From positions 62,001 to 126,000 of the forward strand of contig JADNRX010000144.1 of NCBI GenBank assembly GCA_015501595.1: a stretch of DNA of 64,000 bases, in the 5' to 3' direction. The DNA is from Hymenopellis radicata (taxonomy: Eukaryota > Basidiomycota > Agaricomycetes > Agaricales > Physalacriaceae). The notes under the pieces are model-generated. The model was not told where the DNA came from. It did not search any database and was given only the letters and a program-made list of their open reading frames with translations. Shown here in pieces: positions 6,051 to 43,770 of this stretch; within the stretch, counting starts at the first letter, position 1; every line of letters begins with the position of its first letter. The position numbers and the translations under genes are program-made.

Positions 6051-8760
6051 AAGGAGTGGTATGTCCTTTCATCTCGTCCTTTGCATTTCCGGGCACCTTA
6101 TGCCTTTGTATGAACGAAAATTTTATTTATTTGCTATTATATGCTGTGTCTAGTGTGATTGGAGAAATGGGTACTAGGTTTGGAGTGATTCGTAGCCATT
6201 CGGTAGCCGTTCGGAAAGCTATGGGAGGCTCTCTCAGTTCATCGTAGCGCTTCGTTGCGGGGATCTAGCAACGAGAGCTACGGTCCTACTGTTCCTCAGG
6301 AGTACTCAGTAACACTCCTGAGTGCATTTGGTTTTCCTGATGTGGCGTCCGCCAACTTTTTAATCCGTAGATTCTTCAACCGGCCAGCGTCATGACCCTA
6401 ACCCCGCGCGCCCTCTTGGATAGCCGCCGTCGTCCTATGTCTTCAAAATGTCCTTCATCGGTAGTCGTTCGTTCTGGGGCAAAAGGATTGGCGTATGATG
6501 GTATTCAGAATCCCATGGCTACACGTGATGGAACTTTGCCAGAAAACAGAGATCTAAGAACACAAGATTCACATTTATGGAATATTTTAAATTTCTTATA
6601 TTTTACTCTGGACTGAAATTGCGCGTGCGCAATTTACACCCTATAGATCCCTATCAGGAACGGCCGGGTGTGAAAGTGTTATAAGTGGCGAATTCCAGCT
6701 TTCACGCCATGCACTAAGTACTCGCGGGGATATCTCCGCATTTAAGAAGGTCGCCGCGCGCCTCTGGTGCACAGTCAGGAGCTCAAGGCTCCGAAACTGA
6801 CTCAAGAGTCAGTCGCCGAAAAGAGAAGTTCAAATGCAAATAAAATTTTGTTGTGACAATGCTCTGTTATGGTGTACAGTATAGTCTGAGTTGCTGTCGA
6901 CATCGCCGTAATTGGCAGGCGATACAGGACCCAGGAAGGACGCGAGGACAAAGACCACTTCATGACGACCGACTGCAGCATCTATAGAAAACACGCGTAT
7001 ATCAGAGCCGCGATAATGCGGCGTGACCCTCACTCCCGGCTATGAGGAGTATGAGTATGAGTTAGGGCTGACCACTTCTGCCGCATGTGCTCCACGGATA
7101 CCTAGACGGTTTAGTAAGTACGAGGGACATGCCGTCAACATTCGCACGTATACTCATAGGAATCTGAAATCAGCCAGCGAAAGCCATAGAGTCCGCCGCC
7201 ACAGGGGCGTCAGGTCCCCAGAAACGAGCATCGACGAGCTGGCCGCAGCCGAGGGCGATCCGCAGAGCCGAAGTTCACCATGCTTGGGCACACGAATCTG
7301 ACCCTTCTGAGAAAAACACGCCATGAACGTTGATACGGCAATGGAAACTGCATTGGACAAATGAAGTCGCGAGCCTGATACACAAGTCAAGAAATACAGC
7401 AGAGAAAGATTTGTCTACTGGAGCCGTAGGGTAGCTGAAGTAATCGAAGATGCAGGATCCAGTACCTGGGACGGGTGTCGACAGCCTATTGTCTTCATCA
7501 ATATGAGGATTTGGAAAGACACATTGTACCTTACCATCATGCTCGCAGTAGCACGTTTCTCCGTCCGTCCATTCTGAAAGCACAAGCCTTCGCATTGTAA
7601 ATACGACGAGTGGGTTCTTTAAACAAGAATGTAATCAGCCAAGATTCGAAACGGCATTGTACAGACACCCGGACGACTGTGTTGAGTTCGCATGCATCAC
7701 CTGGAGAACTCTTTTAATGAAAGTACCAGACAATGGCGTGCTATGAGTGATTGAGAATGAGTAGGGAGGTCTGGTCGAGAATTCATACCCAATGAGAGCA
7801 GCATGTATGCGCATATATGCGCCGATTACAGCCTACGCCTAGCAGCAGACGAATAGTAAAGACCAAAGTCGGCCAGCATCACCGGTTCGAAAACGTATCG
7901 GGGTGGATAGTACGAAGTGTATATGGGAGCCAATGTTTGGCGTATTGCGCAGATAAGCGGTCATATTGACGGGAAGGCGGACGCGCTATGTGAAACTTGA
8001 TATAGTAGGGCACGTAGGACACGCACCATCGGCTAGGCGCACCCAGGCTTGGGCGTATACATTTCCAGTCGACCGTCCAATCAGCGGCAGGCATCCAACT
8101 GTACGACCATAGCAGTGTCGGTAAGAGTGCAGAGCGCAAATGGCGGGACAGCTTAGGCGTCATCGCGACGACGGCGAGCATGGCACTAACGACAACATTG
8201 AGTACTATATGCGATAGTACAGGACGCGTACGTACTGCGTTCTGCATCGACTAGAGCGGCGTGAACAGCGAGAGAGGAGGTGGGACATCAACCTGCAGCC
8301 TGATCAGACGCTCTAGGCGTATCCGACGCGTTTGAAGGCATTGCCCGACGCGTCGACATGTTGGCGGGAAGAGAAAAGCGGCGATCAGATACACAAACAA
8401 ATAAACCGCACAGCATTGCTGCTTCCTCACAGCGATTATTTCCTCTTCTGCAACTCTTCTGGACGACCTGTAAAGTCATCGTTATTCGTCAATTAATGCT
8501 CCCTTTTAAGCACTCCGACGCATGTACCCTAGGGCTGCGCAGAATGGTCTAGAAGTTTCGTCCCAATTCGAAACAACATCATCAATGTTCACCTTTGATG
8601 AGCCGTGCCGACTACCTACGTTACGGGTCTTTTGTTCTCAGGAAGACTCTGTTGTTGTCATGGACGCATCTCCATATAAGGTCCTAGTTCTATATTTGTC
8701 TGCCCTAAGTCGCCCACCCTCCATTTCCCTTTGACAACCTTCGCGCGCCACCACCGCAGC
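6051..8760. other. Gene-poor region
   Basis: No confident gene. Seen here: a perfect 9-bp-arm palindrome AAATTGCGCGTGCGCAATTT at 6617-6636; a minus-strand frame 7275-7595 with a Cys-rich start (TCYCEHDGKVQC); and a minus-strand frame 7879-8247 with a hydrophobic N-terminal segment (SHIVLNVVVSAMLAVVA) that could be a small secreted or membrane protein. Neither has a supporting domain or clear intron structure. CCATATAAGG at about 8671 could be the TATA region of the gene starting at 8761. Confidence 0.35.
6596..6612 (-). repeat. 17-bp inverted repeat, right copy
   Basis: Perfect inverted partner of 4426-4442; the two are 2.15 kb apart. Confidence 0.8.
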
Positions 8761-9126
8761 ATGGTCCTCGAAAGCATTCGTGATCGCTATAAACAGCTGG
8801 ACAAGTCTCAGAGGGCTCTAGATACTCCACCAGTGGTACCCGCAAACAGAGGAGATCTTCTGCTGATTCTGAGGACTCTAGTCCAGGAATCTTCTCGACA
8901 ATCTCGCGACGTAACCATAGACAGGTACAATCTGCCGCCGCCGCTTCTTCACCTGGTCTAACAATCCCTTATAGCAACAAGTTCTACTATAAGTGGCGTG
9001 ATTTGAACAAGTGCGTTAGAGCAAGCCACGCTTGCCCCGACGGCGTTCCGACCGTCAAGCGCGCTAGATGCCAAGGTCCCCGGTGCTCGGCCGCTCTTGA
9101 TGAGTTCGGGAAATGGGACTCCCGGT
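8761..9126 (+). pseudogene. Host gene split by transposon, 5' part
   Basis: Exon 1 is 8761-8924, the intron 8925-8974 (GTACAA...TTATAG), and exon 2 starts at 8975. The protein begins MVLESIRDRYKQLDKSQRAL and contains a Cys-rich stretch (KCVRASHACPDG, then ARCQGPRC) that could bind zinc. At 9126 the reading enters the 15.9-kb element and stops at TAG 9139. Joining base 9126 to base 25021 restores the frame (FGKWDSR then SFVNAVNYIWDDD). The joined exons total 1,266 nt, exactly 422 codons with the stop. I do not recognise the family; it looks like a fungus-specific protein of about 421 residues. The allele here should be null, or produce only a short protein. Confidence 0.85.
9118..9126. repeat. 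Target-site duplication, left (ACTCCCGGT)
   Basis: ACTCCCGGT occurs on both sides of the element (9118-9126 and 25012-25020). With a 9-bp duplication both terminal repeats begin with GGGC and their 15-bp identical core lies 16 bp inside each end. Shorter duplications (5-8 bp) also fit parts of the sequence, so the exact length is not fixed. Confidence 0.8.
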
Positions 9127-9157
9127 GGGCCCAGATAATTTAGCGGGAAGCCTAGCG
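9127..9157 (+). repeat. Terminal inverted repeat, left
   Basis: It begins GGGCCCAGATAATTTA and ends in GCGGGAAGCCTAGCG (9143-9157). It pairs with 24981-25011: 25 of 31 positions match, with the inner 15 identical. Confidence 0.85.
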
Positions 9158-9895
9158 TGCTCGCGGGAGTGGCGGGTAGCGGGGTAGCGGGTATTACTCT
9201 GGTCCTAGCGGTCGTAACGCTGTGACATCCAGCACTAATTTAGGATATGACCGCTCTCGGTCTCTTCCCAGGACATAAATACAGCTACTGTGCGCTGTCC
9301 TCACCTTGTTGAATGCTCTCCCGAGAGCTCTGTATCCCGTAACTTTATCGCCGGCATCGCGCTCACGAATTGTCCTACATATGTCGATCGATGTATTTGA
9401 TCCCTGGAATGTCAAGTGGATGTCTGCAAGCCTTTGACTGGATACCCATGCTTATCGGCGAGTCGCGACTCTCATTCACTGTTTGCATGATTGTTTCTGG
9501 TGCCTGACTCGGAATTCTAAGAATGACCCAATATACCGGTGAGTAAGAACCGAACAGGATGACAGACAGGAACTCGACAGCAAGAATTTGGCTGTGGACA
9601 GCGCCAGGGGCGGCAGGACTCGATAACGCGCAGCCAGACGTTTGAGAGAAAGAGGCCAAATCTGAGTCCGAGGAGAGGATATCGTTGCAATGATGATGCT
9701 ATGTAAGTTAGACGTATTGACGCGTCACGTCGTCCTGCATCTGATCGCGCTTGAGATTTGTCGATGGTCGTAAAGTTCAGATATGATGCAGCATACGTGA
9801 CAACAATTTCACGCTAGCGGGATACTCAGATGCCTAGCGGGATGACCGTTAGCGGGCTAGCGAGACCGCTAGCGGGAAGGTAACGAGACCTAGCG
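9143..9895. repeat. Left subterminal CTAGCGGG motif array
   Basis: Copies of CTAGCGGG and close variants (TAGCGGG, CTAGCGGT) cluster at 9143-9220 and again at 9788-9895. The same motif clusters at the right end (23878-23965 and 24900-24985). Short repeated motifs near both ends are usual binding sites for a cognate transposase. Between the clusters I see no gene. Confidence 0.7.
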
Positions 9896-9912
9896 CACCT
9901 ATAGAAATTGTT

Positions 9913-10035
9913 AGGATATCCTATCCCCGATTTTTCGAAGGATAGGATTCGATAGGATTGTGCCAAATCTACCACCCCCGTACCGTACCCATGTCCAATA
10001 CTGCTATCTTATCTTATCCTATCTTATCCTATCTC
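9913..10035 (+). repeat. Inner inverted repeat, left
   Basis: About 123 bp starting AGGATATCCTATCCCCGA and running through a (TATCT/TATCC) array. It is the near-identical inverted copy of 23731-23859 (a one-base indel, a few substitutions and one array-unit difference). The two arms bracket all four element genes. Confidence 0.85.
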
Positions 10036-10188
10036 TGGTCAGTGTGTAGTTGAAAGCGATGTATTTCTATCCTATCCTATCCTGTGCACATGAGATACAT
10101 AAAACAATCCTATCCTATCGTAAGTTCGCATGTGAATCCCATGCTATCCTATCCCCTTCGCGAAGATCATCCCATCGAATCGCACTAA

Positions 10189-12491
10189 CTAACGACGCCG
10201 TGACCTTCGCGCCGTCGTCTTCGTACCTTTCTTCTCTTCGTCTGCCTTCTTCTTTGCTGCCGCGGCAGATCTCTTCTCTTTGGCAAGCCTGCTTCTTCTG
10301 TAACTCGGCTTCTTCCTCCGCCTTCCTGTTAGATGCGCGTGTCATTCGGGTGCTCCTTTTGACAGCTTTCGCTGCGGGCTCATCGGCTGGCGCCTCCACT
10401 GCCTTTCGCTTCGTCGAACGAGTACCCCTCTTCTTGCCGATATCTTCAACGGTCTCTGCCTCTACACTTGCGTCATCCACTTCGTCCTGAGCGTCATCCA
10501 CGTCGTCCTGAGGCGCCGACTCAGGAACGCTTTGCTCGTCGCCCGCATGAACAACCTCAGGCGCCTTCGCGGTCGAAGCGTCAACATGAGCTGGCGCAGG
10601 AGGGGGAGGCATAAGTGGTTCAGCTGCCTTCTTGCCTGTAGGTCTTGGGCGAGGCGAGGGGGAGGTTGGGGTACAGAAGGCTCCTCCTCGTCATCGATAA
10701 GTCCAGCTCCATCTCCACTGCCCTGAGCTTGGCTTCAAAATCTTCGCCGTCGCTGGCCTCGTCGTCGTCGTCCTTGGATAAGTCCATGTCCGCTGCCTTG
10801 AGTTTGGCTTCAACGTCCTCGTTGGCGCTGGATACAGGCCCTGCCAGTTCTCCCGTTTCGTTGGAGCTAGTAGCATCGGCGAGTGCCGATGCGAGGTTCG
10901 CTGCATCCGATACCAACATGTCCCGGGTCTTCTTCGCCTGTGCTTGCCTTTTCTTCTCCATGACAGCTTGTATCTTCGTCTGCTTCGCGGCAGCCTCCTC
11001 AATCCCCTTCTTCATCTTCATTTCCTCCGCCTCACGAATGGCGAGCTCACGCTCCTTGGCTTCTGCCTCACGACGCGCAGCTAGAGTCTCGTCGTTCGAT
11101 GACGTGTGGAGGGCGGCTTGGGAGAGGAAGGGGTGACAGGAGCGACGTCCATAGGACCAGATGGCGGGTCAGCAGGGGCTATGGGCGTACTTGTAGCAGG
11201 GGAAGATGCCTTGGTCGTACTTGTGTCTTGCGGAGCAGGGGTTCCTTTCAGCTGGCCGTCCGTCGGCTCTGGATTCTTCGCCACTGCAAACAAATGTCAT
11301 TCGCATGTTCATCCAGTCAATTAACAACGACTTACATGAAAAACCCGCAGTGACCATGTCAGCGAAGTTCTTCCGAGTGTCCTCCGTAATGATATTCCCA
11401 GTAGGTGTCAGCTTCAGCCAGTCCGGGTCTGGTAAGATGAATTGACTGAACATATTATTAATATACATCGCGAAAGAGCAAAATCAGCTTACTCGTGATA
11501 CTGGTAATGTCCCTGAGCATCTTCGTAGCCCACTTGAACTCCAAATGCAATCTTGCCAACACCGTTATGCCCAAAACCAATGAGAGGTTTGAGGACGGAC
11601 TCGATGATGGCGCCGAGCATGCCCTGACGGCTGTAAAGGACCTCTCAGAAACAACCATTATTCATCAATGAATCACTTACGCATAGACGCTGGAGAGTTC
11701 GGGTCCGTCCTTGATGCTGTCGTTGAACGCGCGCGCTTCATCCTCGTACTTCTTTTGGTCGGGACAATCATTCCACGCCGCAAGCAGACCGCGATGGTGC
11801 CAGCCTTCCTCCGAGCGAGGATCCTTGGCCACCTCCTTGCCCGACGCCTGTGCCTCAGCAATCCTCGCCTCATGTTCCTTCTTCAGCAGGCGAGCACGAC
11901 GCTCCACCAGCTCCTTATTAGCGAGCTGGTAGGCACGCTTCCCACTAATACATCGCGGCTTCGGCTTCACCAACGTCGTATCCCTCAGCCCAGCCCAATT
12001 CTTGTGAGAATTATAGAAATGGCGGCAAATACACTATAATAAACATTAGCACTTCACCGACAGAGACATGAGCATCAACGTACCTTTGAAATCGCCTCGA
12101 TCGGCGGGGACATTTCTCCCTCGTAGAACTTGTCGAGGAAGGGCAGCAAGACAGTCTGGACTATCCACTTTTTCTGCGAGCCCTTCTTGGAGCTATCCTG
12201 AACGAACGTCATGTATTCCTGAGCGAACTCCAGTCGCAGGTATTCCTTCTCCAACTTCGACAGGGAATATCCCTGGCCAGTGGGCTCTGCCACACCGGTG
12301 GTGGTCGTAGTCGAAGTCGTCTGGGACTGCGCGGAATCTCCGCCACTGTTGTCGGTGACGGCCTCGTCGTTGCTGCTGATGGTCTCCGCTGAGTTCTTGG
12401 GCGCCGTAATAGGCTGCGCGATGGTACTCGTCGTGGTAGGATCGGTGGGAGGAGTGGTGTGAGCGCCCTCGCTCGGCATAGTCGTGGACAT
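10189..12491 (-). pseudogene. Element gene A: accessory protein, paralogue of gene C, frameshifted
   Basis: It starts at ATG 12491 (MSTTMPSEGAHTT). A Thr/Ser-rich N-terminus precedes a conserved segment (LRLEFAQEYMTF ... VQTVLLPFLDKFYEGE) shared with gene C (FLENFATEYLNA ... IDNVLLPFREKFKPD). An intron follows ISK at the same position as in gene C, then ICRHFYNSHKNWAGL (gene C: LVSFFKNSKKTGRF). Further exons encode QGMLGAIIESVLKPLIGFGH and a charged region (DMDLSKDDDDEASDGEDFEAK) with a Lys/Arg-rich tail (AKEKRSAAAAKKKADEEKK) ending at 10189. This suggests a nuclear protein. Frame changes near 11120, 10690, 10640 and 10275 break the reading. Function unknown. Confidence 0.6.
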
Positions 12492-12853
12492 CGTGTTGAC
12501 AAGAGGAAATGATGATGATGGTGAAAGATAGACAGATCTAAAGGCGGCGGTCAGTTCAAACCAAAGGATGTCAACAAACACAAACACTCACGCAGCCCTG
12601 CCCTGACAAAGGTCCACGTCTATTGTCCATTGTTCTCTGTAAATATTCCGCGACGCCACAGTGGATGATCAATGTACCAACCTTATTGATCTATCTCGAT
12701 CGACACCGGATCAGCGGTATTCGTCCCGCGTCCAAAAGTAGTAATGCTAAAAGAATGACCGATCGCGAGCAAAGTTCAAAGTAGCTTAACGGTAGAGGTA
12801 AAACAGTGCATAGCATCATAATGTAGTATTGTATGTCATCCGTAATGTAAATT

Positions 12854-13460
12854 CTAAAGTGGTTCTGCGTACTCGACGATGTCGTTCATCCAATTCTGTG
12901 GTAAAGGTTCGTTGGTGGACTGGATGAAGACCGGCTTCGTGTGATCTGGAGGCGCGTCAAAGACCTCACACCATCCGATCGTCTGCCAACCATCCGCGTG
13001 TACCACTGTCAAATCGACGGTCTGGTAGATCTTCACGTATGGGCGCCGAGAGATCCCAAGGCCCTCAGCAATGCGGTGTGGTCGAATAGTCTGATGCGAG
13101 GTCCGACGTTGTGTAAAAACACTGTCTGTTTGCGGTTATCCTAAGGTGTAGCATCAGCAATGTTCAGTAGGCAACGCATCAAGCACCGCACCCGCAAGTA
13201 AAATACAAGCATAATGGTTCGTCTAGAACGATCTTGAGGCAGTTGAATGGCTTTGCGCTCAACCGTTAAAAAGCGCGTGATGCAAGGCTGGAAGTTCTCG
13301 CGAGGTTTGGTAGCGGGCGCCATGACGAAGAGCAGCTGCGAGAGTGAGTGATAGGATGAGGACAAGGTAGCAAATGAACAAAGAGCACGTACCGTGACTT
13401 TGACACCAGCGTTGCCCCTCACGTTCTCGATCACGCGGGGGGCTACAGTGAAAAAATATG
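12854..13460 (-). CDS. Terminal exons of element gene B, or a separate small gene
   Basis: Minus-strand exon-like pieces: NVRGNAGVKVT, then after an intron (GTACGTGCTC...TCGCAG) FVMAPATKPRENFQPCITRF continuing to IMLVFYLR. Then another intron (GTGCGG...CCTTAG) and DNRKQTVFLHNVGPRIRLFD, ending with YVKIYQTVDLTVVHADGWQT through NDIVEYAEPL and TAG at 12854. One frame change sits near 13065. It lies 60 bp downstream of the stop that closes the KOW gene, on the same strand, and could be its original C-terminus. A TATATATA at about 13476 would fit a separate promoter. No family recognised. Confidence 0.4.
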
Positions 13461-13517
13461 ATACATTCGTATATATACAAACCACACATTACAGTACATA
13501 AACGACATTATTATACA

Positions 13518-16500
13518 CTACGACGCGAATGGATCATACAGAGTTTTGCCTTTACTGCTAAGCCTTCTACTACGAAACACCTCGTTTGCGATAAGGTCCG
13601 CCTTGTTGTCCGACAACATCACCAAGTCCGCATCTAAAACGTTGAACAATCCGGGAATCTCTTCGTCTTCGCGTCCAAACCGAGGTTTCACTGCGATTGC
13701 TCGCCATTGACCCACACTCGCCGTTCCGTGGTCATCGTCAACATCGACGGTTGCTGTCGCGGACCACTGAATACCTCTAAAGAAGTATCCTTTGTAAGGC
13801 CCGTTCCAACAGTACCATCGACTGTGGTCATGCGGATTTGAACCGGGCGACTTGGGGGAGTAGTGACTCGGGGTATGTGTCTTCGACGATTCTTTAGCAT
13901 TGCCGTGCTTGACTCGATAAAGCTTGGTTACTCCGTTCTCTTCGAATTGACGTAGTAACCAGACGCGCCTTTTCTTGCTGGTGGTCTTGTCCCAAAAGAC
14001 GCATATGTTGTGGCCCTTCAAGTCCGGATGCAGCAGCCAGTGGTGTTCTTCGGCAGGTGCAGCGTCAGAGGAAGTAATGGCAGCTAACGGAAGTACCGGC
14101 TTTTGGGAGCGTCGTGTTGACCAAGCGCGGTCCATTTCCTCCTTGAAATGTTGAAGGTTTCCCTTGTATCCGTTACGCTCGTGCAAAGGACTTAGAGGGT
14201 ATGCCACGCGTAACGGCCACCCAGTGCTACAAGTTCGTCAGGAAGACGTCTCAATGCAACGATGATAACACTTACTGCTCATCGACCACATGCAGATAAC
14301 TCACGACGACTTCCACCGATCCCAAACCGCTTTGTCCACTAGCCCCGTAAAGCTGCACACGCACTCTCAGGCCACTCTCATCCGCTCGGTCGAACTCAAC
14401 ATCCACAACATTTCCTCTCCGTCCCTTGTAAGAACCTGCACGCACTCTCAATCCACTGTCATCCGCAAAATCTAACTCAACATCCTCAACATTCCCTCTC
14501 CGTCCCTTGTAAGAACCTGTGTCTCCAACGTTCGGAGAATGTACGATTACCACATCAGCACCCTTCCAAGGCGCGTTTCCAGTATAATAGTCTGGACGGC
14601 GCATGTACTCGGGTACGAGAAATTCGGTTTTAGTGCGACCAGGCTGAGCCACAGCGCGGGGGTGGTGGGGCATCACATCGATGTTCGGGGATGAGTCGCC
14701 TGCCCATCGTCTGCACGAGTTCCTATGGACAGTGATCGTCTATAGATTTGGTTAGTACAATATTGCCGGCTAAACATGATCTTTCACGTACCCGAGCAAC
14801 TTTGCCATCGATGTTGTCAGTGTGGGTGAAGACATCAACTTCTTTCCCAAAGACTGAAAGTACCCAGCCTGCCGCCAGCAAGTACTTTGAGTGAACGACT
14901 AGGACGTACTCCATTATCCTCCAAACCTTCAACAACCTAGTACCGTCAATTTCCACGCCCTCATTTCCTTCAGAAGCGACCACCACCTTCGTACCCCGAA
15001 TCTCTGTAACCCGCCCTTGGACACCTGCTCTCGCAACCTGCTCGACGCCATCGACTTTCACCGGCCTGACCACCTCCTCCACAAAGTCTCCGATTTCAAG
15101 ACGCCAATCGGCCGAAGGAGGCAGGGAATGTTTGTTGATATGATGAGATTTCGAATCTAGGAAGGCGGTCCTCAGATTGGTGGGATGCAAACGGCCGGTT
15201 TGAGGCAATCACGCCTGCAGCGGAGCACCAGGAGGTCCTCGTCGAAACATCTTCTGGGCAACTGGTCAAACACCGACCACTCGCTCGAGGACACTTCAGG
15301 ACTCGTGTCACTCAAACCTTCAATGGCATTGTTATAAAACTTCAGGTCCTTGGCTGGTGTCTTCTTGCGCAGGATCAGCTGAGAGGAGTCCAGAAGTCGT
15401 GCTCGTGGTCGCAAACCCCGTCGGCCCCACTTCTTCAGGTCCTTCTCAAGGTCCTTTTGGTGGGCTAATCCTCGAGAGCGATCTTCGGGAGGGGCAAGAG
15501 ACACGCGCTTCCCGTTCGCGTTCAGTTCATACCCGTATTCCAGCGTGCGAGCATCTACGATGACACGCGGGACCAACAGCACGTCGTAATAAAGGTCGCC
15601 CTGGACAGCGAATCCAACATCTCCAGCATAAGCGCCGCCGCGAACAGTAACCCAACTATCAACCAAGTTGATGTGATGCGTTTTGCGCGCACGAAGACAG
15701 GCAGAACGTTCCGATATGTCCAGGATGCGGCGGCGGGAGGCAAGGCTGATCGTAAGAAACTCTGAGGCGAGGAATTTCTCCACATCGACCAAGGTTGTCC
15801 GGTCAGTTCTCGACACCTTGCGTTCGTCGGAGGGAAGACTTTTCAGGATGCGGTGGGGGTCAAAGTCGAGGAGGAGGTATATGCGCCACTGTTTTTTGTT
15901 GTTCTGAACGCTGGGCAACAGCCATGCATCAATGACGTCGAAAGGGAGGCGGGAATGATCCTGGTGAATGCGGGACAGGCGCCTGCGAACTTCGTGGGCT
16001 GTGCCATACTAAAAAACATTGTAAGTGAGTATAATTATAACAGACAATTCTCCTACCTGTTTAAACGCGTAGCTGACCACCTCCCTATTAAGGTCCTGAG
16101 CCAAAGCTCTAATGGCGCGTTCGTGCGCTCCGTCGCCCGCCGTCCAGTGATGAGTCGCCCCAATGTCAATATCTTCATCAACCATATCCTGTTCCGAAGA
16201 GTCTGGAGATGCCAGGGTTTCCGCGCTTGTCAGCGAGGCAGATGGGCTACTTGATGATGGCACTGCGCTGCTGCTGCTGCTGGAAGATGGATCCGCAGCA
16301 CGCTCCTCGTAACGAAAGGCGATGTCCGCTAAGTCGGCCAGAAGGTGCGCCTTGGCTCCATGGACTTGAGGCGCCTCAATATTTTGGGTCTGCTGCATAG
16401 CGGTGGGCTGCGCCGCCCCGTCCTCATCCTGATCCACATCGTCGAAGAAATCTGGGTAGGTAAGTTAGTGCAAATTCATCATGATTCCAGCTTCAATCAC

Positions 16501-16609
16501 CTTCAATCTGGGCCTCATCATCGGAAATCTCTTCCTCTTCGTCGGAGTCAGCGGTGACGGCGGCGAGATCGAGGAAATGATCCACTGAGCTGGACAACGG
16601 GGCGGGCAT
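13518..16609 (-). pseudogene. Element gene B: KOW-domain, SPT5-like protein
   Basis: It starts at ATG 16609 with an acidic N-terminus (DSDEEEEISDDEAQ, DFFDDVDQDED), as in eukaryotic SPT5. It is spliced at about 16454-16501 and 16025-16073 (GTAGGA...TTTTAG). A 240-residue exon follows with a KOW-type turn, DSWVTVRGGAYAGDVGFAVQ. A second KOW region is GDFVEEVVRPVKVDG...GVQGRVTEIRGTKV, and a third is two tandem SYKGRRGNVxDVE units (14358-14519). SPT5 and NusG family proteins bind RNA polymerase and tune elongation through NGN and KOW domains; the NGN part is not clear here. Frame changes near 15200 and 14215 break the reading, so the copy may be inactive. The SPT5 label is inferred from domain style; a generic KOW protein is the alternative. 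Confidence 0.55.
14358..14519 (-). repeat. In-frame 81-bp tandem duplication inside a KOW segment
   Basis: Two 81-bp units, 14358-14438 and 14439-14519, each encode 27 residues beginning GSYKGRRGNV. They differ at about ten bases. The duplication keeps frame and doubles one KOW loop. Confidence 0.9.
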
Positions 16610-17519
16610 AACTTGACCTGAAAATGACATTAGCGACCTGGATTTTCCCTGCATCTTTTAACAGCTTTTCGAGCGAGCGATGACTCTCAATAATTTTTTT
16701 TCATTGACGGCGGCACACGATACTATCTACGCTCATTTACTGAAGGCGCGAAAAGACTTACAGAGGGCGGCTAGCGACTTGACGGTCTTGAGGAAACAAG
16801 GAAAGGCTTAGTCATCAGCCGAGATGCTACGGATACAGGCCTCTGATGGCGACACCTCGGGCATCGGGAAACTTTCAGACGTCGCAAAGTTTCCCGATGC
16901 CCGAGGTGTCGCCATCAGAGGCCTGTATCCGTAGCATCTCGGCTGATGACTAAGCCTTTCCTTGTTTCCTCAAGACCGTCAAGTCGCTAGCCGCTGCCGC
17001 CTTCGTGGGACCGAAGGCGGCGGCGACGCCTTGGCGCGCGCGAAAGCAGAGCGCCTAACGAGCAGTCAACGGCAAGTTTATTATTGCTCGGCGCTGCAGC
17101 TGGCTGACTAGCCGTCAAGGTCACTATCGCCGCTCATCGACACGTTGCCCACCCCCCGCCTTGTCGTGGTGCCAATTGTGGTGAGGTCCATTATTCTCGT
17201 TCCCAACCGATCTCATCGTTTATCTCAGTGGCCACGCAAAATGGCGTCGTCTGAACAAATCTTCCGTATGTCTTTGTCCTCTTTTTGACGGACAATAACA
17301 TTTAATGCTCTTGAATAGACCAAGGCCCAATTCCCTTGTTATGCCTCCCAAAATTAGTAATGTGGACCGAGCGGTGAGTAGTCCGTCCTGCTGCGGGGCA
17401 TGATATTCATTGTTAGAGGATAGGATCTGACGTGCCATTTGTTTCTATAATTTGGATCTGAGATACGATAGGTTTGTGTTATTTAATCGCGTTCTGAAAC
17501 GGTCGTAACCGACCACTTC
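16610..17519. promoter_or_regulatory. Divergent intergenic region of the element
   Basis: About 0.9 kb between the start of gene B (-) and gene C (+). It contains the 109-bp-arm palindrome, immediately followed by a small GC hairpin (GCCGCCTTCG/CGAAGGCGGC, about 16996-17021) and a GCGCGCGC-rich stretch. No supported gene here; it probably holds both promoters. Confidence 0.5.
16767..16994. repeat. Perfect palindrome, 109-bp arms, 10-nt loop
   Basis: The arms 16767-16875 and 16886-16994 are exact reverse complements, separated by CAGACGTCGC. Pairing stops abruptly on both sides. A diverged third copy of the arm sequence lies at about 19174-19240. Confidence 0.95.
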
Positions 17520-18936
17520 ATGGCAGGCCCCACCTCTTTCGCACTCTTGCCATCCAATCTCAAGGTTAAACCTCCCGAACACCTACCAGCGTTGCCGTCA
17601 GCGCCCAGCGAGCAAAGAAATGCGATCATCGTTCACTGCAACAGCCATCTCCGGCATATCCTCACCCATGCCAATGACCAAGAACACGGAGGACGCTCAC
17701 TATCCCAAATGTGTTCGCGGTGCAAGCAAGCTACAATTATTGTCATCACCGACGTTGGTGCCAGCGCGAAACATGGCGGAGCTTTGGTTGGCGGACCGGA
17801 CGACGCGACTTTTGATCAAGTAGGATGCCAATTCACAAAGGTGTGTATTACTTTTGTCTTCCTACTTCTTAAACTCACGATTGTACAGTGTCGAAATTCC
17901 ACATGTGGAGACTTCAAGGGCATTGACCCAAGTGGTTTCACGGCTGCTCAGCTTGAACGCATGCCTAGCGTCATCTATTGGCTACGCGAGAGAGAACGTT
18001 TACTGGCTACAGTCCCCCCACCCGCTCATATAATCGAAAACCACGCCCCTCTGCACCGACTCGTTCATCGTCTCCGGTTCCTCGTTCTTCCCCTACTCCA
18101 GCACCCCGGCCACGTCCCAAACGCGCTGCAGAAGATCATGCCGAGGCGTCTGTTCCGAAGAAACACAGGCTAGACGTCTCTGCGACTACACCTCGCGCGC
18201 GGTGGACGGCCAATGAGAAGCTTTTCTTGGAGAACTTTGCGACTGAATACTTGAATGCTCCTCATGGTGATGGCAAGGCGTTTGTTATCGACAACGTTCT
18301 ATTACCTTTTCGCGAAAAGTTCAAACCAGACTTCACAATCAGTGAATTACAAGAGGTACGTGACCGACACTTCGATGAACTGACATTTCGCTGATGGCCC
18401 CACTTGTAGAAACTTGTCAGCTTTTTCAAGAATTCTAAGAAGACTGGGCGCTTCGTGTGCCGGCCCCGCCTCGGGCTCGTCAACCGCCGCGTCCCGTTTC
18501 GCCGACGACCTCCGTAACTGTGATCGACGAGACAGACGATGACGAGGTTGTCATTATGGACGCCGTGGCGCAGCGTCGCTTGACATTCGCTGTGTTCCTC
18601 AACGTATGTCATGATGTCGCCGGCGCGGTATTCAGCTCATTAGTGATTTCATAGGACAATGCTCCTCCTCAGGTCTTTGAACTGGAGGTCGCCGCAACAG
18701 GCCCTATCAAACCGACAAACTATCTCAAAAAGTTCGGCCGAAATGGTGTTCATGCTGGTCTTCACCTCGAGCAGTATATCCCGGAACTGATGGAGTTCAG
18801 GCCGTTCCTTTGGCAAAGTGCGCTGACTATCCCCAAAGCGGAACTTTGGATCGCTCTGAAGGATGCTCGGGTGTCGATTGCTCCCAGCGAGTGGGATGGC
18901 TTGACATCACATATATTGTCCCCGTTTTTCGAGTGA
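17520..18936 (+). pseudogene. Element gene C: accessory protein, paralogue of gene A
   Basis: ATG 17520 opens an exon with zinc-ribbon-like cysteines (MCSRCKQA; after the intron at 17841-17888, KCRNSTCGDFKG). It then moves to a Ser/Pro-rich region with a nuclear-signal-like stretch (RPKRAAEDHAEASVPKKHR). The segment shared with gene A follows (FLENFATEYLNA...NVLLPFREKFKPD), then an intron at about 18356-18410 matching gene A, an acidic patch (VIDETDDDEVV) and a last exon (18656-18936) ending LTSHILSPFFE. The frame changes near 17990 and, by a GT duplication, near 18457. The first could be an unrecognised intron. Likely nuclear; function unknown. Confidence 0.6.
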
Positions 18937-19173
18937 ACCGATCCCACACGCTGTATCTACTCGGCATGTACCTATACTAGCTTTGTTTCCAATATAAGTC
19001 GAATTTATTACGCCACATTTGTTTGTAAAAAAATGTTTTGCTACGATGCTGGAAAACTAGAAGTATTATGGTACATTTATGTCAGTCATGGAAAGCGAAT
19101 AACATTTAAAATTATCGTACCATTACATACCGTTAGAGCGAAGTCAATTAATTGCGCCACTCATGGCCCATCG

Positions 19174-19240
19174 CCGATGCCCGAGGTGTCGCCATCAGCG
19201 GGCCTATCAGTCGAGGCTCGCTGCTTAGTAAGACTTTCCA
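19174..19240 (+). repeat. Third, diverged copy of the palindrome arm
   Basis: 25 bases at 19174-19198 are identical to the right palindrome arm. The following 40 or so bases are recognisably similar with substitutions and small gaps. It sits about 300 bp before the transposase ATG. Confidence 0.75.
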
Positions 19241-19535
19241 CCTCTGCTTCTGACCACTACCACACGACGCACCTAGGGCGCCGCCCTACGATGGGCGGCG
19301 GCGCTGTGGCGAGCAGCAGGTTTCGATGGTAACAGGCCGATCCCCGTAAGTGCGCAGTGTCGTTGGATGGAGACTTGAATGATTTATTGTGACAGATTAG
19401 GCGTGGACGCGTCTTTGTTGTCTGTCTTTGTTGTCCCAAACAAGGCAGGTGGGTTGTGTGGCCCTTTGTTTGTATATTCTCATTATTGACCATCCTATCG
19501 CTAGCCTCCTTGTTCTCTACCCCACCTACATTGCG

Positions 19536-22500
19536 ATGAAACCCCTCAATCTGAAGAAGATCCAGAAATACGCCGCGAAGCATCCACCCATTATCGCCAA
19601 CGCTTTCACAATACTATCGTCTCCTCCCGCCCCAGCTGCAGAGACCTCGAGCGCCGCCTATGCCCCAGCCACTTCCATTGCTGCTGCCGACGGCAAGGAC
19701 GATATACAGGCGGCCAGCACTTCTGCGGCGGACTCTTCGGCGGACAACTCGTTGGATCCCGAAGAGGATTGGGAGGATCTGGAGGTAGAAAACTCGACGA
19801 AGTCCACCTATGAGCTAGCGCGTAAGCGATACCAGGTACGTTCCCGGCTGTTTTGGAAGCTCAGTATGCTAACCGTCCTGCTAGGGTGTTAGCGTGAAAA
19901 TACAGCCCTTCTTGGATTTCGGTGCCTACATACAAGAAGCGGAATTCGACTCCCAATACCATGACGCTGTCATCGGTGATTGTCGTCGCTGCGGACAGCC
20001 CGAAAAAGCGATATTCCGTTGCCAGCAGTGTCGCACACGACCTGTTTGCAGTTCCTGCATCGTCCAATGTCACCAGCACTGCCACTTCCACCGTATCCAG
20101 CGCTGGAACCTCCAATTCTTCGGGGTCGCTTCCTTGCACGACCTTGGTCTCGTCTTCAACCTGGGACACGATGGAGACAAGTGCCCTGCCTCAGAAACTG
20201 CTCGAACCATAACAGTTGTCGACGTTAATGGGTACCATAGTGTTAACATCTTATATTGTCGCTGCCGCTGTCGACTCGAACTGGCGGCCAAGCACTCGGC
20301 CGACGGTAGACTGGGCCTATTCCACGATGAGGCTCATCAATTATTCACCTCTCGGCTGTGGCCAGTGACCCTCGAGGACCCAAAAACCGCCATCACTTAC
20401 GAAGCCCTGGAGAATTTCAACATTCACGCCAACACCTCGAAGAAGTCAGCCTACGATTACTGTTATGCTTTACAACGCTTAACGGATGCAGTTGAGCCAG
20501 ACAAAGTCTCCGTGAGTATCATTTCGAATGATCGCAGGGTTTTGGACTGATTGAATTGCAGGACTGTTACCGATCGTTCATGCGTGCAATCCGCGTGAAG
20601 CGCCGCCTGGAATATCGTCGGCGCAGTGGACAGGAACAGGGAATCGACGCGTTCATCACACATCGGCGACCCGGTAGCATGTCAATATACTGTCCAGCCT
20701 GTCCGGACCCTGGATGGAACGTGCCAATGAAGGAAGTCTGGGAAGCAAAGGAATGCGACGCGTCAGTCGATTCGTTTAATTGACTGGCGACTTTATTTAA
20801 CAGAGGAAAATAGGCACAAGTATACGAAGTTCGAACAGAACGATGGAACCTTCAATGCGCCGCGCCTCAAGAAGAAAGAGGACCCAGATGACGAAGCAAT
20901 CACTGCCGGTCTCTCATATATGGCGGAGGAGAAGGAGTACCAAGCATATTTAGACAGATGCGAAGGAGAGGAGCCAGACGTAAGTCCTTTCTTGAGGTTG
21001 TCATCGCGTGCCCTTAGGCGTATTTGTGCAGGCGAATACCTGCGCTCGACTGAGGGCGATGAAGTTGCAGTCGCTCCTCAAGTTTGTGAACTTGATCGTG
21101 TCCGGGATTGTAGGGACAACGTGTTCAAGGCACGTATTCTTCGAAGACAATTCCGTTGTCGATATGTACGGCGGCGAAAGGTAAGCAATATCTGCTTGGC
21201 GAAAAGATTGATAGTAGCTGACTTGCTCAACAGATTTGCCTATGCTACGCGGAGTCTATTTGGCACACTTCGGTATCAGCTCCACCAACGCTGGATTCGC
21301 TGGGCTTACGACATCTGGTGTCAATTTGTGAAGAATTTGTCGAAGCGTTTGTTTGAGGATGGCAAGTTCCCCGAGCTGGACAACGACAAGGAACTGCGGG
21401 AGAAGATGAGATCGCTGATTGGGCGATTGAAGGGCGGCATTCCCCCTCTTCACGTCTTGGGACACATCTCGTTGTGTCGTACTCTTTATGGGTACTCACA
21501 CCAGAAGAACGTAGGGAAAACCTGTCCCGAAACGGTCGAAACGCCCTGGGCAGCCACGAGGATTTGCGGTGGAAGCGTCAAACATCAAAATCATGGGCAA
21601 CGACAGGATAGTCTCAACGCCGCTTTCGATGATTGGAATTATAACAAGTTGATCAAGCTCGGTAAGTGTTTCGACCGTATAAGATGCTGATTACTGAATG
21701 GATTACGAACTTGTAGCCTGTAGCATCAGCAAGGCGTATGTCAAGGCGAAGAAGACACACTCCCGGTTGCGGCACGAATTCGACCTGGCGTCCAAGGCTA
21801 TATCCCACGACCTGCGCGCGAAGTGGGAGCGTGAATATGCCGAGCCGCTTCCAGAAGCTGACGACAACCACATTGTCGACAGGTTTGAAGTTAACTTTAA
21901 AGGGATTGGTTAGTGGACAGTTTGTTGAACGTTCGATGACTGACAACGTATTCCATCAGATGTTCCAACTATGCAACAGTTCATGAAGGACCAGCTGGAA
22001 CGAGAGCGAGCTGAAGCCCTTTCGAAGACTCCAACTCCGGGATTCGCTGATGGATTGAGAGAGTTATTGGAGGAAGGTGTCCGCTTGGACCATGATCAGT
22101 AAGTTGATCTTATACGGTGCTTAATGGATGCTCAAGTGATTGCAGGAAAGTGGTTAGTCTCCTCGCCGAGGCAGAGGACGATGAGTGGGACGATAGGGAC
22201 GCCTTAGATACGACGCGCGAGCGGCTGTACGCCGCCATCTGCACCTTCATGGAGTCTTTCGTGGGATTCTTCCCCGCTTTATCGCCCCTCACCAAGACTG
22301 TTGATCCCAACTCCCCTGAGGATGCCTTCCTTCCCCTCCCAAGTCGACTCTCGCCCGCAAAACGCCATGACAGCCGATACAATCTACAGTATGCGACAGA
22401 GGTGGAGTACGGCCTGCGAAAGGTCCAGGCCCACGAAATCCTGACGGAGATCCGAGGACTTATCATCCTACAAGTGGAAAATTTACGTGCCAAGAAAGAA

Positions 22501-23547
22501 CATCTTCATGGACAAGGAGCTACTACGCGGGCGCATCGCATACTCAAGCGATTTGAGCGCGAGAAGAAGGAGGCGATGATTCGCTACAACTTCGTTCGTG
22601 GTCGCCTGTTGCGTTTGGGATTGGCCGAGGATGACACGACCTTACGGCACTTGGAGGCGACTCACATGAAGGGGAAGGATGCAACGAAAGTCGCTCAGCC
22701 TGGTGAAGCCCGCATGGGTGATTCTTGGCTGTGGTCGGTTTCTAAGCCGGGCGGGCTCACTGAAGAGGACGAACAAGACTGGTATCTTGAGAGTAAGTCA
22801 TTTTAATCTACATCATGATGCTCCTAATAAAAAGTTGTAGTTCGACGTGTCAAGTGGTTCCGCGAGAAGGATGAGTGCGAGCATTGGAGAGAGGAGACGG
22901 AGATACTTGAGGCTGAGAGGCCCCGAGTCGAGACTCATCACGAAAAGACTGCGACAGTGTGGGCCAAGATTGCAAACAAGGCGGAGACGCCCGGACGCAA
23001 AGCTTACGCATTTCGACAACGTGCCTCACATATGAGGTGGCGTGATCGCATGGTGACAGAATGGAAAGAGGCGTTAGCAAAGGTGAAGAGGAATGAGGAG
23101 GTGATGCAGAAAAAGCGGGAGCGTGAGGCTGAGATGGAGTCGGCAGATATTGAGCGGGAACGTCGTGCTGAAGAGATGGCGAAAGCTGAGTCGTCTGCGC
23201 GTGGTGGGACCAACCGGCGGAATATGCGGATCGATCACGAGCTTGAACAGCAGGCGGCACGAAGCAAGAAGTCACAGGCTAAACGGAAGCGTGTGCCGGT
23301 TGATGATGACGAGGAGGATAGCGACGATTCTGAGGAGGAGGTTCACGAGGCGGACCACGGCGATGATGATGAGACAGGCAGGCCTCGGCCGAAGAAGAAA
23401 GCACGGGCTTCAGGTAGCCCAACCAAGGGAAAGGGAAAGGCCCCAGGGGCGGGAAGTAGCAGAGGTCGGGGCGGAAGAGGTCGGGGTGGAAGAGGCAGAG
23501 GCGGTAGAGGGCGGGGGACACGTGGGAAAGCTCGCGGGACGCATTAG
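19536..23547 (+). CDS. KDZ transposase with CxC2-like cysteine cluster
   Basis: Ten exons (19536-19835, 19885-20511, 20562-20765, 20806-20979, 21032-21180, 21234-21661, 21717-21908, 21960-22098, 22146-22792, 22841-23547) give 3,567 nt, exactly 1,188 codons plus stop, with no internal stop. Residues about 133-165 form the cysteine cluster (DCRRCGQPEKAIFRCQQCR, VCSSCIVQCHQHC) associated with KDZ transposases. SIYCPACPDPGWN precedes the catalytic core. Likely acidic residues are D390 in NDGTF, D511 in AYDIWCQ, and E584 or E587 in CPETVETPWA. VDMYGGER and DWNYNK match family hallmarks. The C-terminus is a charged coiled region with basic signals and RGRGG repeats. It should cut and join the element ends. 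It is the only uninterrupted gene of the element. Confidence 0.95.
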
Positions 23548-23560
23548 GATACGATGGGCT

Positions 23561-23686
23561 GTGATGGACTCGCTAGGATTGGATAGGCTGACTACGCCAC
23601 GGTAGGCTGGGATAGGATAAGTTGTGATGGACTTGGTAGGATTCGATAGGCTGACTACGGTATGGTAGGCTAGGATAGGATGGGAT
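23561..23686. repeat. Two 63-bp tandem units behind the transposase gene
   Basis: Units starting GTGATGGACT at 23561 and 23624 share most positions and contain repeated GGATAGG words that grade into the AGGATA array of the inner inverted repeat. Confidence 0.75.
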
Positions 23687-23730
23687 ATAGTATGCGGAAT
23701 ATCTAATTTTTTTGTGCTGTTGACTGGCGT

Positions 23731-23859
23731 GAGATAGGATAAGATAGGATAAGATAGGATAAGATAGCAGTATTGGACATGGGTAGGGTACGGGGGTGGT
23801 AGATTTGGCACAATCCTATCGAATCCTATCCCTTCGAAAAATCGGGGATAGGATATCCT
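23731..23859 (-). repeat. Inner inverted repeat, right
   Basis: Inverted partner of 9913-10035, from GAGATAGGAT through CGGGGATAGGATATCCT. Confidence 0.85.
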
Positions 23860-23877
23860 ATCAGATTCGGTTCCTGC

Positions 23878-24985
23878 CTAGCGGGGTAGCGGGGTAGCGG
23901 GACCCGCTAGCGGGAAACCTTTACAGACTGCTAGCGGGAAGTATCGCTAGCGGGAATTGTGTAGCGGGACTAATACAGACTAATACCAAACACCATAGTA
24001 CCTTACAGCCTTATAGCATGTTTCAAACGCTGCTTTGTGTCTCCAAGTGGCCTGTTCGCCGTTCGCGGAGATACGACAGATGGTAGACTCAGAAAACCTC
24101 ATGCTTGAAAGAAGAACTCCAGCTCTTGACTGTTTCGATGTGTCTGTGCTTTAGTCGATGAAGTACTGATGATAGTAGCTCTTGGCTTCAGTGTTGTCAT
24201 TAAAGGCCTTTTAAAGGCCTCAAATTTTATCAAAGACCTTTAAGAGTTTAAAGGCTTTATAAAGCTTTAATATTAAAGGCCTATTAAAGGTCTATTAAAC
24301 TATTTTTGCGGGCTCAAAAAATTTCTTTTTAAGTGAGGTGACCCTGAAAATGCTAGCCGTGATGTAATATTTAGTATGTATAGCTTCACTTCATAAGGCT
24401 CAGAGAGGAGAGGTACTAAGATATTAAAGCCTTTATAAGGCCTTTAATTAAAATTTCTAATAATTAAAGATCTTTATTAAACCCTAATTAAAGGCCTTTA
24501 ATTATTAAAGCCTTTACCTTTAATGACAACACTGCTTGGCTTAGTGCCAGTGGCGATTAGTCGAGTCATCGACGAAGGAACAATTTCAGATGAGGTCGAT
24601 GAACAGATCCTCCAGGCATTTGGGGCTCTACGATTATGAGCTAGCACTCAGACAAGGATGGCAGCTAGGGTCTTATCACACCAGAAAAATGCAGATGAAG
24701 GCAATATTAATAAGTTTATTCAACATTCTCCTGGTTACTCGGTGACTTCGGCACTACTGACTACCTTTAAATACCTACAGAGCCTTGACTGAGGGGCGCT
24801 CCAGGTGACGGGAAAGCCTGCCTTCTGGTGCGTTTGTCGTTCACGATGTGTCCAGCGACGTCCGTGAAGGAATTCACCGCAAGTGCAGTCTTACCCTGGT
24901 CCTAGCGGTAACCCTAAAGAGGGCCTAGCGGTAACCCTAACGGGTGTAGCGGGGTAGCGAGAACCGCTAGCGGTCAGTCCCGCTA
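23878..24985. repeat. Right subterminal CTAGCGGG motif array
   Basis: Motif copies cluster at 23878-23965 and 24900-24985, interrupted by the nested MITE at 24189-24534 and by sequence with no recognisable gene. With the MITE and its target copy removed, the stretch outside the inner repeat is about 0.8 kb, nearly the same as on the left. Confidence 0.7.
24189..24534. mobile_element. hAT-like MITE, 346 bp, nested
   Basis: 18-bp perfect terminal inverted repeats (CAGTGTTGTCATTAAAGG and its complement) are flanked by an 8-bp duplication CTTGGCTT (24181-24188 and 24535-24542). The start CAGTG and the 8-bp duplication are hallmarks of hAT elements. The interior is AT-rich, made largely of AAAGGCCTTT-type words, with no coding capacity. 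It inserted into the right end of the KDZ element, so it is younger. Confidence 0.93.
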
Positions 24986-25011
24986 GGCTTCCCGCCACTT
25001 TCTATGTGCCC
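24981..25011 (-). repeat. Terminal inverted repeat, right
   Basis: CGCTAGGCTTCCCGC (24981-24995) followed by 16 bases ending GTGCCC; inverted partner of 9127-9157. Confidence 0.85.
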
Positions 25012-25020
25012 ACTCCCGGT
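25012..25020. repeat. Target-site duplication, right (ACTCCCGGT)
   Basis: Second copy of the 9 bp found at 9118-9126. Confidence 0.8.
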
Positions 25021-26068
25021 CCTTCGTCAATGCCGTGAATTACATCTGGGATGACGACCTCAAGATACTCTGCTGGTCGATCATATTCAATATGAATAAC
25101 GGGCAGGGGCGCTTCTACGGCTACGAAGATGAACGTTTTCATCGCGTCCTCCCATCATTCAGAGAGGATCTCAAGCAGTTTAGCAATAGCCTTCTTAATG
25201 TGCACCACATGACATCGGGTACGTCGATTCCCTCGTTCTCTCCCGACAGGTGCTGAGCAATTCTCTTACCCTTTAGGGATTACCGAAAGGGCCGACTTTC
25301 AGTACCAGGTTAATGGCCTGTTTGAACTATTCAAACTCCTGGTTGTTCTAATTAGCAACCGTCTATCGAGAAGGCAGTATGTTTCCTATGACAAGGAGAT
25401 AGAGCCCGAGGACGTCAAGGACCTGTTCCTCCAGATGCAGAATGACATGATGGCTCTCTCCCAGTCAACGTCCCCAGTTTTCCGTTTTGTCATGGGGTGG
25501 AACGTGAATGAGGTGCTCCACAGTGCCAACACGAACACAACTGTGATTCAACTGCTGCATCCCAACATCATCTGGCGTCATTTCCACTACATGGAACGGT
25601 ACAATAGGCGTTTTCCATGTGGGAAGGAAGTGAGGCAGTTCTATGATGTTTCGACCGCCGTCGTAAATTTGCACTCCAAGATCGGGGTTCTGCGACGAGA
25701 CGGAGTAATCGAGGGCTTCTGGGAAGGTACGTGGTCACTCGACTCCTGGGCACGATGCTAACGCAGGACCGCTCACAGCGCAAGACCGTCTTCGGGGTAT
25801 GATGAGTGCCCTTGAAAGGGCGGCATTAAAGCTGGCTGCCATTGTCGTTCTTCAGAGGCAAGAACATAAGGGAGCCGCGGGTCCTATGAGTAACGACCAG
25901 CAAACCCTGTTCATGCTCGTAGTCCTTGGGGTGAAGAGTATCTCCACAGCAGTGGCGGAGATAGAACAAAGTTTGAAAGACAACGAGAAGCGGTTGATGA
26001 AGCAGCGTCAGCGTCCAGCTCAACGTCCGACATCTAGGCCCAGCGGACATGCAAGAGGACTCTGGTGA
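25021..26068 (+). pseudogene. Host gene split by transposon, 3' part
   Basis: This continues the gene begun at 8761: rest of exon 2 25021-25218, intron 25219-25276, exon 3 25277-25726, intron 25727-25766, exon 4 25767-26068 ending at TGA. The part is mostly helical in character (LFELFKLLVVLISNRLSRRQ, VKDLFLQMQNDMMALSQS) and ends in a Lys/Gln/Arg-rich tail (KRLMKQRQRPAQRPTS). All exons are uninterrupted and phases agree. Without the 5' part it lacks its own start. Confidence 0.85.
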
Positions 26069-26607
26069 TCAGAAGTCAGAATAACAATGTTCATTAGCTT
26101 GCAAAGGACACGATTCCTAGTCCGATTACTTCTGTCCATAAATGAACCGATTTTCAAGTGCAACAGACACAGTGGCGTACTGCGTAGTCTGTAATAGTCA
26201 GATGCAGGTGAGAGAACGAAGGGAAAAATGATTGAAGGACTTAGGATCCATCCCTGTCAACCAGCGAGGTTTGTTGTCTTGTGGAGGGTCGAGTTCCGGC
26301 GGCGGCGGGAACACGAGCGGCGGAAGCACCAACAGCGAAGGCGGAGCGAGTAGCTGACTTACGCCGTTCCCATCACGCCATGAGCGTCGTATACTGCCAC
26401 TCGTATGTCTTGTCTAGTTTTGTAAGTTCATAAGTAATCGGAGCGAGACAGACTGCAAGACGGGAACGAGATAGTACATTCATTGGTAAGTTGGCACTCC
26501 AATGCCATGAGGGCTGACGATAGTTTGGACGATATTCGATGGCTTCGCATTCTAAAAGCACCAATACGGGGACGAGTCCCGGAAGACGAACGATAGACCA
26601 TCATTAT
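26069..26607. other. Spacer without a recognisable gene
   Basis: Convergent spacer between the split host gene (+) and the APH gene (-). No feature seen beyond a GGCGGCGGGAACACGAGCGG-type GC patch around 26300. Confidence 0.4.
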
Positions 26608-43400: not shown

Positions 43401-43770
43401 GAGCTCAACTCTCCATCCCTCTCGCCTTGTCAAGCAGCACAGCCACCGATCGTTTCTTTTGCTTGAACTAGCGTCTCATTGGAAGAGATGTTCGTTACAT
43501 CCATCAAGACATCTCTTTTTCGAACTTTCGGATTGTGGACTCTTCGAAATGTGGACGGGACCTGTGGCCGCCTTTGTGTCGTTTCACCCTATTCGACAGG
43601 AACAATGGGCGAACACAATGGTGAACCCATTCAGGACGCCAGTGGCCTGACGCGGGTGACGCCTTAAAGAGGAGCGCCGACGATTGTTGAACCCCCACTA
43701 TTACGACGCCTACAAGCCTTTCCTTTCAACGCGACATAGAACTCAAATTTCCTCGTTCATTTTTTTCAGC

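Follow-up and report, generated by a model that had tools for sequence, protein, structure and literature searches.

The locus considered here raises the question of which transposable element owns the borders of a 15.9-kb insert that splits a gene of the edible mushroom Hymenopellis radicata (Physalacriaceae). The insert lies in a window of 64,000 nucleotides, i.e. the whole stretch of DNA that was analyzed (C457:62001-126000, in an assembly of 75.5 Mb), and all C-numbers used below denote contigs of this same assembly. An initial annotation had regarded the insert as one complete KDZ transposon. We find that it consists of three nested cut-and-paste elements, every one of which has terminal features and a target-site duplication of its own, and we consider this almost certain. 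A non-autonomous element of approximately 1.5 kb, probably Mutator-like, first entered the second exon of a mushroom gene that exists in multiple copies, with duplication of 9 bp; a 13,981-bp KDZ transposon, apparently of the Kyakuja type, later entered this small element at CCTAGCG, with duplication of 7 bp; and a 346-bp hAT-like miniature inverted-repeat transposable element (MITE) later entered another spot of the small element, with duplication of 8 bp. The relative order is thus the small element first and the KDZ element and the MITE afterwards, in either order; of the dated insertion formerly proposed, this relative order stands and any dating beyond it does not.

The outer borders themselves are exact to the base, and the gene is indeed split by a transposon that duplicated 9 bp on insertion, as the initial annotation had stated. 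The duplication ACTCCCGGT is present at 9118-9126 and again at 25012-25020, and the imperfect terminal inverted repeats GGGCCCAGATAATTTAGCGGGAAGCCTAGCG and GGGCACATAGAAAGTGGCGGGAAGCCTAGCG occupy 9127-9157 on the plus strand and 24981-25011 on the minus strand, with a common core, GCGGGAAGCCTAGCG, that begins 16 bp inside each end. The sequence between the two copies of the duplication (9127-25011) is 15,885 bp including the two inserts and their duplications, and only 1,543 bp of it (9127-9895, 23884-24188 and 24543-25011) is the outer element's own. A degenerate 30-base pattern of the ends, allowing up to three mismatches, matched 58 times in the assembly, the window's two ends included, and the ends are not due to chance because the reversed control gave no match. 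The search of the genome with the left end gave at least 23 matches, three of which (C457, C1275 and C914) include the host flank; 18 of the 20 without the host flank begin exactly at 9127, and those on C586 and C519 start 1 bp and 8 bp earlier, respectively. The search with the right end gave at least 34 matches; apart from the window's own there are 33, of which 26 finish exactly at 25011, six finish within 7 bp of it and one finishes 9 bp short. We fetched 24 other copies of the outer element and counted the 18 in which both ends were recognized by our script, leaving out those on C1087, C752, C575, C737, C1195 and C874, whose ends were not both recognized. The end-to-end length is 1,350–2,032 bp in 16 of the 18, the others being 4.3 kb on C999, which was viewed as a list of open reading frames only, and 7.8 kb on C803. 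Exact duplications of 9 bp flank 11 copies and exact duplications of 10 bp flank four, two copies have a duplication with one mismatch (at 8 bp on C482 and at 9 bp on C1189), and one copy has none.

Copies in which the small element is uninterrupted are available for comparison with both inner inserts. On C525, C627, C1154 and C482, the window segments 9127-9895, 23877-24193 and 24535-25011 are aligned contiguously (on C482 the left block extends to 9893 and the last block starts from 24537), and these four contigs represent at least three loci because C627 and C1154 have one duplication in common. At the position of the larger insert, C525, C627 and C1154 have AACGAGACCTAGCGGGGTAG, containing CCTAGCG once, and C482 has the same sequence with one changed base; in the window, CCTAGCG at 9889-9895 is followed by the insert at 9896-23876 and then by CCTAGCG again at 23877-23883. 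The insert, 13,981 bp read on the plus strand, has the termini 5'-CA...TG-3': it begins with CACCTATAG (CACCTA) and finishes with TTCCTG. Subterminal inverted repeats, 90–92% complementary, begin about 8–13 bp inside these ends, with the left arm at 9904-10043 (plus strand) and the right arm at 23723-23868 (minus strand). The right end falls exactly at 23876 in the window, on C1275 and on C914, whose flanks differ from one another, and relatives beginning with CACCTA are found on C741, C443 and C675 and those with the right end CAGCAACCG on C1063, C651, C9 and C741. We rejected the pairing of the C741 ends at 43596 and 60593 as one element, for they have no duplication in common. The segment 24189-24534, which is absent from all four uninterrupted contigs, is bordered by the 8-bp duplication CTTGGCTT at 24181-24188 and 24535-24542, and its terminal inverted repeat CAGTGTTGTCATTAAAGG matches at 18 of 18 positions; judging from the duplication and the repeat of this one copy, it is a hAT-like MITE. 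Separately, the small-element copy on C1087 (minus strand, around 3145-3130) gives way to another sequence at the CCTAG where the window carries the KDZ insert, and this position is possibly a preferred target.

On the basis of these comparisons, the view that the whole of 9127-25011 is one KDZ transposon with a 9-bp duplication appears scarcely credible to us. The flanking repeats do match, terminal repeats are present and a KDZ transposase lies between them; the same ends, however, bound elements elsewhere in the genome that are mostly too short to hold a KDZ element, and the four contigs with an uninterrupted insertion site already contradict it. Furthermore, the accessible part of PMC12730594 gives 7-bp duplications, CA..TG termini and no terminal inverted repeats for two Laccaria families of Kyakuja (section 3.2.1) and 8-bp duplications for Zisupton and a Dileera element, and a duplication of 9 bp fits none of these. 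The earlier observation was therefore correct, and the owner assigned to the borders was wrong: the KDZ transposase gene does lie inside and reads open, and the borders at 9127 and 25011 are a property of the small element of about 1.5 kb.

Several observations weigh against the nested structure and have to be considered together. One is the copy on C519, the only one of the 18 without a duplication. Another is that C1275 and C914 share window positions 7542-23876 (at 99.4% and 99.2%, respectively) and then exit exactly at 23876 to other flanks, which differ from each other and begin in high-copy repeats; because these two contigs leave the window sequence there, the assembly around the 14-kb repeat is not clean. 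The third concerns a tract at about 13.75–15.0 kb that is 99.6–100% identical to the C741 element and 94–98% identical to C1275, with the reverse relation on either side; C914 carries C1275's bases within the tract, and the tract itself is put down to gene conversion or a consensus error. All three near-identical left ends that the assembly contains share one left flank, suggesting that the assembler reused this flank, and the switch of flanks in C1275 and C914 is likely an assembly artefact at the repeat. It might accordingly be asked whether the assembler added the KDZ sequence to a small element that does not physically contain it. In favor of this, C1275 and C914 point to a switch of flanks by the assembler at the KDZ repeat, and single-base insertions and deletions between contigs suggest imperfectly corrected reads. 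We consider such a chimera very improbable, because a random misjoin would not place matching halves of a single small-element copy on either side of the KDZ element and add a perfect 7-bp duplication. For the same reason, namely that the sequences bordering the KDZ element together make up a single outer-element copy and carry the perfect duplication, the window's own junctions are independent of the problem with C1275 and C914. These two contigs repeat the left junction, possibly from the same reads, and are not counted as independent support; we rejected them as full second copies of the locus, their flanks being different from 23876 onward, and used them only for the right border of the KDZ element.

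To which class the small element belongs can be judged from its duplications, its ends and its longer relatives. GGGC ends fit Mutator-like elements, and GCM zinc fingers occur in Mutator transposases. The 7.8-kb relative (C803:20057-27856) shares its ends with the outer element, is flanked by the 9-bp duplication AATCACGCA, and encodes a protein with a zinc finger of the GCM type (PF03615, 7.9e-7; the score of 29.5 bits exceeds the cut-off of 25); its coding sequence, scanned unspliced, is spread over several frames. PMC5225508 names duplications of 8–10 bp as a feature of Mutator-like elements (MULEs), and the duplication is exact at 9 or 10 bp in 15 of the 18 other copies and is 9 bp in the window. 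Judging from the duplication length, the ends and the GCM domain of the relative, the outer element is probably a non-autonomous Mutator-like element, and the C803 element is a candidate for its autonomous partner. What speaks against this assignment is that none of the four C803 reading frames scanned yielded the Pfam MULE domain, and that none of the 14 MULE-domain matches in the genome lies between ends of this type; those on contigs with such an end (C482 and C458) are both more than 40 kb away from it. These negative results speak for the alternative that the small element is a non-autonomous KDZ derivative or belongs to another superfamily, an explanation that we regard as unlikely in view of the 9–10-bp duplications, the GGGC ends and the GCM zinc finger, and, for a KDZ derivative, of the KDZ relatives in this genome, which start with CA. 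The mobility of the small element would have depended on a transposase provided in trans.

The split gene lies on the plus strand and has relatives at five other loci. In our gene model its left part comprises the exon 8761-8910 and the start of exon 2 (8982-9126, including the left 9-bp copy), and its right part comprises 25021-25218, 25277-25726 and 25779-26068, the last with the stop codon. Rejoined, these five segments give 410 codons and a stop, or 1,233 nt; the number of segments agrees with the initial annotation, whose figure of 1,266 coding nucleotides, for which the exon list was not at hand, could not be reproduced. The spliced model reads on in frame across 9126/25021, as had been claimed, and paralogues exist that cross this junction without interruption: those at five loci (C514, C654, C463, C1228 and C869) have no gap there, and the unsplit paralogue BDZ89DRAFT_1116476 (405 amino acids) aligns with the whole of the joined protein (100% coverage, 60% identity). 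The alignment with C463 contains an in-frame TAG near the junction, and therefore not all five paralogues are intact. The ratio of nonsynonymous to synonymous substitution rates against the C514 paralogue is 0.77 over 396 codons, which points to weak constraint on the gene. A search with the joined product gave two matching proteins among 5,565 candidates, both of Hymenopellis radicata; the gene therefore belongs to a multicopy family for which no relatives turned up outside this species, and it has no assigned function. At the split locus the gene is presumably inactive. A deposited protein, BDZ89DRAFT_1041820 (P0001, 292 amino acids), lies wholly within the right part (25021-26068), so that what was annotated as a gene is probably just a fragment.

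We then consider what the KDZ element encodes. Its transposase gene (19536-23547, plus strand) has 10 exons, and the predicted spliced product, with nine introns all of the GT-AG type, reads through 1,177 amino acids without a stop. It contains a KDZ domain (PF18758; 3.6e-34, profile positions 6–217 of 217) with a CxC2 cysteine cluster (2.2e-26) beside it. The protein search gave 52 matches among 7,999 candidates scored, and the names listed among them are those of mushrooms and related fungi. When the window's protein was aligned with 15 of these 52, D379 and E576 were invariant and D500 was at least 90% conserved among the 16; we take these three residues to be the catalytic D-D-E triad. The element would move through its own transposase acting on the CA...TG ends and the subterminal repeats, in a genome that carries at least 166 KDZ-domain matches, and it would carry at least one further gene. 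A predicted multi-exon gene of 666 amino acids on the minus strand (10115-12491) comes from the automatic gene model only and is weakly supported. A palindrome at 16767-16994, consisting of two 114-nt arms without a spacer that are 98% complementary, is also present in C1275 and C914, and a 28-nt piece of it is repeated at 19174-19201. Rfam at gathering scores gave no match in window positions 8000-27000, and no TET/JBP domain appeared in the Pfam scans of selected element proteins, no search having been aimed at TET/JBP beyond these scans.

The cargo gene whose model reads open lies on the minus strand at 13518-16630 and has six exons encoding 945 amino acids with a weak likeness to the transcription elongation factor Spt5 and to KOW proteins. 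The best Pfam match is to KOW5_SPT5 (6e-4), whose 19.7 bits fall short of the cut-off of 27, and KOW and Spt5_N are weaker still; an Spt5 protein should have NGN and KOW domains above the curated cut-offs, and this one has no NGN and no KOW above them, nor did Pfam find an Spt5 or KOW match in its single exons. A search with the 945-residue protein gave nothing at an E value of 0.001 among 8,000 candidates scored. Independently of this likeness, genuine Spt5 domains occur together with KDZ-transposase sequence in single gene models from two other mushrooms. One from Leucocoprinus leucothites (P0031) has Spt5-NGN, KOW5_SPT5, CxC2 and KDZ domains, all above the cut-off, in one gene model, and one from Leucoagaricus (P0050) has Spt5-NGN and CxC2 above the cut-off and a partial KDZ domain below it; the NGN-KOW1 part of these two proteins matches SPT5 of solved structure at 1e-9. 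The models of P0031 and P0050 could be annotators' fusions of neighboring genes, which would still mean linkage. A profile comparison of one conserved part of the cargo with the Spt5 NGN-KOW1 of P0031/P0050 gave a probability of 67% over 53 columns; BLASTP of the cargo against the same two proteins was not significant (best E value 0.05), and there was no Spt5 among the matches of the cargo profile to PDB. A single-sequence structure prediction of a cargo part, with a mean predicted local distance difference test score (pLDDT) of 37.9, was not used.

Parts of the cargo recur at seven loci of the same KDZ family, and six of them, that on C675 being the exception, are within 10 kb of a KDZ match. 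Among 17 loci with more distant cargo relatives, five lie within 10 kb of a KDZ match, whereas no more than 2.6% of the genome is that close to one (P = 5e-5; with C816 and C1175 taken as a single case, 6e-4); the comparison uses 108 KDZ positions that were picked by hand from the listed KDZ matches, with neighboring fragments dropped and some positions rounded. The other 12 of the 17 loci are not near these positions, and seven are on contigs without any of the 108. That CxC2-type mushroom KDZ transposons recurrently carry an Spt5-like gene, with the window's element as a far-diverged example, is a tentative proposal that we hold to be possible but rather doubtful, and the association is a lead and not a result. 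If it is true, a linked Spt5-like gene would be a new type of cargo, which would perhaps keep the element transcribed or counter silencing. No paper joining KDZ and Spt5 was found in the literature searched, from which its absence from print is not established.

The locus is a three-layer nest of common kinds of elements, in which the sequence evidence for each layer is unusually clean. It also shows how the ends of a target element can be mistaken for those of a larger element nested in it; if 9127-25011 were adopted as a KDZ reference, 1.9 kb of foreign sequence and wrong termini would enter repeat libraries. The KDZ element at 9896-23876, on the other hand, has borders that uninterrupted copies of its target fix to the exact base, and the length of its duplication agrees independently with that of the Kyakuja elements published in PMC12730594.

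Each of the three layers can be compared with a known system. MITEs of the hAT superfamily are characterized by an 8-bp duplication and a terminal inverted repeat starting with CAGTG, and the small insert of the window, of which one copy was examined, shares both. The outer element has the same kind of duplication as MULEs such as Muta1 (9–10 bp here, 8–10 bp in PMC5225508) and the same pattern of non-autonomous copies with the ends of a longer coding copy; unlike in MULEs, its terminal repeats are short and imperfect (about 31 bp) and its coding relative has no identified Pfam MULE domain. As for the KDZ element, its assignment to the Kyakuja type would rest on the CA...TG ends and the 7-bp duplication; the Laccaria Kyakuja elements are described without terminal inverted repeats in PMC12730594, whereas the window's element has clear subterminal inverted repeats, a point that counts against the assignment. 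The founding paper on KDZ transposons is reportedly that of Iyer et al. in 2014. In Kyakuja-1_LB and Kyakuja-2_LB of Laccaria bicolor, as described in PMC12730594, we find the same KDZ-type transposase, the same CA...TG termini and the same 7-bp duplications, and likewise an Agaricomycotina host and an extra gene carried by the element; in the window's element, unlike in those of Laccaria, the gene carried is a weakly Spt5-like one.

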